This document shows positions 1 to 825 of a stretch of 45,673 nucleotides of DNA, one piece after another (positions within the stretch are counted from its first letter, which is position 1; each line of letters begins with the position of its first letter). Origin of the DNA: a bacterium (GTDB taxonomy: Bacteria; Patescibacteriota; Minisyncoccia; UBA6257; 02-FULL-45-10c). Location of the stretch: contig JAUYKI010000003.1 in assembly GCA_030700025.1 (NCBI GenBank), positions 1-45,673 of the forward strand, read 5' to 3'. A program made the position numbers and the translations under genes. The notes under the pieces are model-generated. The model worked only from the letters and a program-made list of their open reading frames with translations, did no database searches and was not told the DNA's origin.

Positions 1-690
1 ATTTCGAGTATCGACCCTCGAGGTGGCGTAGCTAACGCGTTAAATGAACCGCCTGGGAAGTACGGCCGCAAGGCTAAAACTCAAAGGAATAGACGGGGAC
101 TCGCACAAGCGGTGGAGCATGAGGTTCAATTCGACGGTAAACGAGAAATCTTACCAGGGCTTGAAATGCTTACGAAGATTCGCCGAAAGGCAAATCGTCT
201 CTCAAGGACGTAAGCACAGGTGCTGCATGGTTGTCGTCAGCTCGTGTTTTGAAATGTTCCCTTAAGTGGGGTAACGAGCGCAACCCTTATCCGATGTTAC
301 AAGTGTCATCGGGAACTGCCCTCTTTTTGGGGGAGGAAGGTGAGGATGACGTCAAATCCGCATGGCCCTCTGATGCCCTGGGCTACACTCGTGCTACAAT
401 GGCCGGTACAAAGGGTTTGCCAAGCCGCGAGGCGGAGCTAATCCCAAAAAACCGGTCTCAGTTCAGATTGAAGGCTGCAACTTGCCTTCATGAAGTCGGA
501 ATCGCTAGTAATCGCGGATCACCTATGCCGCGGTGAATACGTTCTCGAGTCCTGTACTCACCGCCCGTCAATTCAAGGAAGCCGGGAATACCCGATGGTC
601 GTCTTAGACGACTTAGGGTAAATTCGGTGACATGGAATAAGTCGTAACAAGGCACGCGTAGCGGAAGCTGTGCGTGGATCAATTAAATAC
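1..690 (+). rRNA. rrs: 16S ribosomal RNA, 3' portion (5' end outside window)
   Basis: Conserved 16S blocks: AAACTCAAAGGAATAGACGG, GCACAAGCGGTGGAGCATG, GGTGCTGCATGGTTGTCGTCAGCTCGTG, AACGAGCGCAACCC, GGATGACGTCAAATC, GAAGTCGGAATCGCTAGTAATCGC, CACCGCCCGTCA, AAGTCGTAACAAGG, and a h45-like GCGTAGC-GGAA-GCTGTGC hairpin followed by GGATCA. The 3' end position is approximate. Confidence 0.97.
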
Positions 691-825
691 AAGATTTCTA
701 TTGAAAAATAGAAATCGGAGTACGGTTATGTAAGATGAAAATTTTTACACAAAACGGTATTGGCCGAGGAACCTTCGTGTTTCGGCCTTGGGATGACTAA
801 AAAATTTTTTAATTCAGTTCAAATC

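Follow-up and report, generated by a model that had tools for sequence, protein, structure and literature searches.

A 16S rRNA gene without an anti-Shine-Dalgarno sequence in a Paceibacteria genome that carries Shine-Dalgarno motifs in accessory genes

By analyzing the 45,673-nucleotide contig JAUYKI010000003.1 (the window) together with the rest of its genome and the genomes of relatives, we confirm that the 16S rRNA gene of a member of the class Paceibacteria (Harrisonbacteria family), as assembled, is genuinely without an anti-Shine-Dalgarno (ASD) sequence. We consider it likely that this reflects a genuine and inherited loss, that translation is initiated without pairing between Shine-Dalgarno (SD) motifs and the ASD, and that the SD motifs which the genome nevertheless carries are features brought along from donors.

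Results

The contig begins within the 16S gene, the 5' half of which is absent from the assembly, and the remaining part aligned to the Rfam SSU_rRNA_bacteria covariance model with 629.9 bits (window 1-689, model positions 822-1533). An earlier note, made from the letters of the window, had described a clear helix 45 with no CCTCC after it, and both the covariance-model match and the tail sequence bear this out (Table 1). The 13 bases past helix 45, GATCAATTAAATA (677-689), contain neither CCUCCU nor a close variant, and no CCTCC occurs from 677 to the palindrome at 826-853; the tail (677-693) was read from the gene, and the mature 16S 3' end may differ. The draft genome comprises 830,402 bases in 18 contigs, of which the window is contig C12, and is 98.69% complete with 0.48% contamination. 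A whole-genome search of this assembly returned one 16S only, and GATCACCTCC and ATCACCTCCT had 0 occurrences on both strands of all 18 contigs; the second rRNA copy with CCTCC for which the earlier note advised looking is thus found nowhere in the assembly. The same search gave a single 23S match, on contig C8 and hence not on the 16S contig. This match (L043) extends over 4.3 kb, insertions included, and two of the insertions appear related (GCTCCTCCT...CAATTTCGTCGTCGCGCCTTGA, L043 about 3700-3930 and 6270-6510).

Downstream of the tail we found a stem-loop that is the counterpart of one in relatives with the conserved loop GAGCCTTAAGT, the window copy being matched by eye. In an order-wide alignment of 15 relatives, its stem bases change yet stay paired, and across the order it sits 47-93 nt past helix 45. 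The element matched no Rfam family at gathering score and is possibly a 16S processing or antitermination element. A homologue of the pilin-like gene that follows also lies 3' of the 16S in several relatives, and because this gene order is shared, the 16S belongs to this contig. With its covariance-model score, intact helix 45 and conserved locus, the copy does not resemble a pseudogene, and an assembly error, also raised in the earlier note, is very unlikely since the 16S ends of relatives agree.

Table 1. Positions of the features discussed in the text, in window coordinates unless a locus is named.
Feature	Position	Strand	Evidence or remark
16S rRNA gene, 3' part	1-693	+	Rfam RF00177, over 1-689; single copy found
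Helix 45, intact	653-676	+	CACGCGTAGC-GGAA-GCTGTGCGTG
16S 3' tail GATCAATTAAATACAAG where GATCACCTCCTTTCTA is expected; no ASD	677-693	+	Sequence; tail type common to family and order
16S trailer stem-loop GGCCGA...TCGGCC	762-787	+	Counterpart of the stem-loop in relatives
Pilin-like gene	895-1455	+	tblastn matches in L013, L010, L005, L007, L289
bS21 gene (rpsU)	5996-6139	+	PF01165, 30.5 bits, above cut-off
GCCCGA-hairpin element, window copy	12787-12824		
GCCCGA-hairpin element, other copies	L083:11227; L083:13263; L089:845; L091:289(-); L091:9441(-); L100:11979; L100:4878(-); L101:13536; L104:14976; L108:4340(-)		
Thiolase gene (12833-14161) with SD TAGGGAGG (12818-12825)	12818-14161	+	PF00108/PF02803; SD and homology table
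FadB-like gene, SD AAAGGAGG	14158-16188	+	PF02737/PF00378
M16 peptidase gene, SD AAAGGAG	22233-23483	+	PF00675/PF05193
AAT-family gene, SD GAGGAGG	23535-24686	-	PF03417

The earlier note had called the absence of an ASD a rare state for a free-standing bacterial genome. It is instead the norm in the order and in much of the class Paceibacteria, a group of reduced and probably host-dependent, not free-standing, bacteria. All 12 readable 16S 3' ends of the family are without CCTCC, as are 40 of 41 further members of the order (family included) whose 16S end could be read; the lone exception, G029, gave nine 16S matches, and this genome is probably mixed. Conservation extends to the replacement tail, AATTAAA, and relatives have tails of much the same kind (GATCAATTAAA, GATTAATTAAA, GAACAATTAAA, GATCATTT); a tail type common to family and order is no chance event. 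These relatives include Candidatus Harrisonbacteria (the family of the window), Nomurabacteria, Zambryskibacteria, Jorgensenbacteria, Wolfebacteria, Liptonbacteria, Adlerbacteria, Campbellbacteria and Parcubacteria bacterium RAAC4_OD1_1, and it is from their names that the class, Paceibacteria, and the phylum, Patescibacteria, were taken. Further tails are conserved over families, with AATTCAATTTGAA or close forms in Nomurabacteria, Zambryskibacteria and Adlerbacteria, and this conservation suggests that the new 16S 3' end is still under constraint.

Beyond the order, we listed 16S ends phylum-wide with a freer pattern than the earlier class-wide one, which had fixed some tail letters and was biased; about half of the genomes gave no match, their 16S being missing or divergent. 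Outside the class of the window, CCTCC is present in nearly all of the ends listed, usually as CCTCCTTTCTA, with the rare variants ACCGCC (G380, G566), CACTTCC (G343), TATCTCC (G529) and CCTCAT (G602). Within the class of the window, CCTCC is kept in families f33, f38, f41, f60, f65, f66 and f76, eroded tails occur in f75 (GATCACCTTCTTTC), f51 (GATCACTTCTTATC), f78 (GATCACTACATTTC) and f83 (GATCACATCATTTT), and sister families show ASD intermediates such as CACTTCT. Because rRNA insertions distorted an initial 16S tree, the tree used was built on profile columns. On this tree of 87 rRNA 3' domains, the ASD state takes 4 changes vs 14.8 with shuffled labels, and among the 57 rows of the supported ASD-minus clade that contains the window, only G241 departs from this state, its position in the tree being doubtful. 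These two results argue that the ASD loss is old and clustered, as either more than one loss or a loss with rare regain.

Initiation signals were read from 599 genes called by a simple coding-score caller that is blind to upstream signals, and homologue status was judged against 1.39 Mb of relatives' DNA. Among genes with homologues in relatives, an SD precedes 5.8% vs 3.2% in control windows, starts lie in open regions (39-nt windows fold with a mean energy of -2.8 at the start vs -6.8 at +60), and G is depleted around -10. A TATAAT-like hexamer peaks at -12/-13 (46 and 42 of the 599 genes vs about 11 per position), a leaderless-like pattern of the kind expected where the first transcribed base would coincide with the start codon or adjoin it. 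From the near-background SD frequency, the open starts and this peak, we infer that most initiation would proceed via start codons in unstructured AU-rich regions and on leaderless mRNAs. A new ASD that pairs with other upstream motifs was rejected: the enriched motifs are GGAGG and TATAAT-like, and by eye neither pairs with AUUAAAUACAAG. We also discarded a genome-wide tally of AGGAGGN{4,8}ATG for telling ASD-plus from ASD-minus genomes, since it was weak (p=0.08) and compositionally noisy. Two ASD-bearing members of the class (G165 and G104) showed no SD excess with the same gene caller; in this class, having an ASD therefore need not go with visible use of SDs.

The ribosomal protein bS21 is a neighbor of the ASD. 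Its loss as a counterpart of the ASD loss was ruled out, as bS21 is mostly retained (24 of 28 genomes of the order), and so was loss of bS1, since a bS1-like protein is retained despite the ASD loss. Era binds GAUCACCUCC (PMC10582724). Both ASD-plus and ASD-minus members of the class lack era, with the exception of one weak match (for its absence in Paceibacteria, see PMC12641178). Era as the switch was ruled out on this ground. Its loss may have removed a constraint and thereby permit ASD loss; because era is absent with or without an ASD, it does not by itself explain that loss.

The earlier note had also held that, with this as the only functional 16S, ribosomes could not use SD:ASD pairing. 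This stands insofar as the only 16S found has no ASD, but the genome is not free of SDs: a canonical SD at canonical spacing precedes 92 of the 599 called genes vs about 19 in controls (p=8e-23), and these genes are distributed over nearly all contigs, the window included. Only 24% of them have homologues in relatives' DNA vs 60% of the rest (p=2e-9), and their GC3 is.528 vs.463. In the window, the ten called genes within 895-12658 are all without SD, and the SD-bearing genes of Table 1 lie beyond them. The thiolase gene has no homologue in the relatives' DNA searched, and FadB is present in 2 of 60 relatives only. Thiolase/FadB homologues with 43-52% identity in two genomes of the order, G038 and G020, likewise carry SDs; the 16S tail of G038 is without ASD and that of G020 is unreadable. 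Within the family, the SD is shared in 1 of 5 ortholog pairs whose G000 member has one, a small sample. Given the few homologues in relatives and the higher GC3, the simplest reading is that SD genes were acquired and may have retained the SDs of their donors. Three observations count against regarding these SDs as baggage, namely that 92 of 599 exceeds the expectation for SDs that have long been useless, that shared leader designs are not expected from random import from many donors, and that the homologues in G038 and G020 carry SDs too. A shared pool of exchanged genes, or an unknown SD recognizer, would explain both the leader designs and the SDs of the homologues.

Two such leader designs recur. 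The boxA-like motif GTTCTTTGAAA lies upstream of 23 of 80 strong-SD genes vs 19 of the 519 other genes (p=2e-11), and the association is also seen in the family relative G010 (4/11 vs 3/126) and in an ASD-bearing family (G102; 3/11 vs 2/111). A copy in the window lies at about 12738-12750 (GTTCTTTGAAACT). A connection of the motif with transcription antitermination would be guesswork; for a comparison with relatives' rRNA leaders the boxA pattern was uninformative, since it matched 155 of 600 random pieces. The other design is a repeated GCCCGA-hairpin-TTTAGGGAG element found in eleven leaders of the genome (Table 1) and in none of the relatives searched. Its form is GCCCGA-(hairpin)-T(C/T)TAGGGAG, standing a few bases before the start codon and often after another hairpin. 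The CCC of the element could pair with the GGG of the SD, and in view of this possible pairing, a regulatory RNA and a dispersed repeat are both candidate readings. Four genes (L087, L090 (two) and L102) are preceded by CTTTAARAGTGAGGGATG, a near-identical stretch that reaches into the start codon.

Elsewhere in the window, a group I intron (17339-17564, 71.4 bits, within 17280-17905 on the minus strand) appears to interrupt a tRNA gene, with tRNA-like ends at about 17290-17340 and 17860-17905. ARAGORN found no tRNA at 17280-17905, and the intron is overlapped by a 104-aa ORF (17518-17832, minus).

Discussion

In the explanation that we favor, the ASD loss would be old, inherited by the whole order and part of a set of clustered losses within the class. 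The 30S subunits would locate start codons with no pairing between SD and ASD, probably by way of unstructured AU-rich start regions and of leaderless mRNAs with a -10 box 12-13 nt before the start codon, and with a bS1-like protein and bS21 retained. The SDs would be donor features of horizontally acquired accessory genes, which might be translated here without pairing.

The abundance of SDs and the position of a 5'-truncated 16S at a contig end might point to a second, unassembled or unbinned 16S with a normal ASD that serves the SD genes, the window copy being minor or specialized. We regard this as very unlikely, given that relatives assembled in 1 to 3 contigs (G047, G002, G005) show only ASD-less ends, that SDs are hardly in excess among genes with homologues in relatives, and that the SD-bearing family relative G010 has a single, ASD-less 16S. 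The SDs might instead be functional through another partner, be it an ASD borne on another RNA, a protein or a different set of ribosomes, and such a partner would fit the SD motif, spacing and leader grammar that are consistent over many genes and contigs, as well as the SDs kept by homologues in other genomes of the order. It is nonetheless improbable when set against the concentration of SDs in genes without homologues in relatives and with deviating composition, the absence of the ASD-like tail sequence from the genome (18 contigs), the one in five family ortholog pairs sharing the SD, and the recurrence of the leader grammar in an ASD-bearing family, which makes it importable. Equally doubtful is the proposal that AAGGAGG leaders form a working second initiation class for accessory genes with boxA-like leaders, recognized not by the 16S tail but by a partner of one of these kinds.

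Two further alternatives concern the tail itself. Among rRNA genes of this group insertions are frequent (PMC11270868), and one could imagine a 3' end interrupted after GGATCA by an intervening sequence, with the ASD joined by splicing or processing. Yet no CCTCC follows up to the 826-853 palindrome, and the short tail is common to relatives whose downstream sequence differs widely, leaving this scarcely probable. An assembly chimera or a mis-binned contig would be a natural concern for a gene that is often mis-assembled in metagenomes and lies at a contig end, and it is extremely unlikely here: the same tail type is found in 40 other genomes of the order, the 16S-pilin order is conserved, HisRS and LepB of the contig had no second copy in the parts of the genome searched, and contamination stands at 0.48%. 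We retain an inherited loss of the ASD as the best explanation.

ASD loss is a known kind of event, and its extent here is unusually wide. Nikolaeva in 2021 reportedly tied ASD loss to the loss of ribosomal proteins in tiny genomes; those genomes share with ours an ASD lost in a reduced genome and differ in that bS21 and a bS1-like protein are retained here. Our searches of the openly licensed literature turned up no description of such a loss across Paceibacteria, and we consider the loss itself moderately novel, since the 2021 set may include some of these lineages. The 16S of Mycobacterium carries an ASD. As in leaderless initiation in that genus (PMC4633059, PMC3898074), the -10 box would put the transcription start at or next to the start codon, but unlike there, the leaderless starts proposed here are predictions from sequence. 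According to the available text of PMC6107228 (Lim 2012 via Amin 2018, and Amin 2018), ASD-less 16S genes are known from Chryseobacterium, Elizabethkingia, Riemerella, Blattabacterium, some Mycoplasma and Carsonella, and ASD-less genomes are generally also without SDs; that text does not name Patescibacteria among them. Our genome resembles the Amin 2018 set in its intact helix 45, its 13-base tail without CCUCCU and the near lack of SDs in genes with homologues in relatives. In contrast to what the same text reports, the loss here extends over an entire order plus further families of a single class, and 15% of genes retain SDs. In Bacteroidia ribosomes the ASD is present and occluded by bS21/bS18/bS6 (PMC9976891); as there, most genes here would initiate without SD pairing and some keep SDs, so far as can be judged from the genome, whereas the ASD is absent from the gene itself, which is not the occluded-ASD type. 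As in the 30S assembly without Era of Paceibacteria (PMC12641178, PMC10582724), era is missing here too.

SD:ASD pairing is the taught default of bacterial initiation. In genomes such as this one, gene finders that score SDs may misplace starts, and annotations of 16S 3' ends that presume CCTCC are wrong here. A large and diverse ASD-less lineage standing beside sister families that keep the ASD or have eroded tails forms a natural series on the role of the ASD, its replacement and the order in which features of the ribosome decay. The genome also holds a large set of SD-bearing accessory genes beyond recognition by its ribosome, as far as the 16S gene shows, and with SD and SD-less genes side by side and the only known 16S unable to pair, it offers a direct test.
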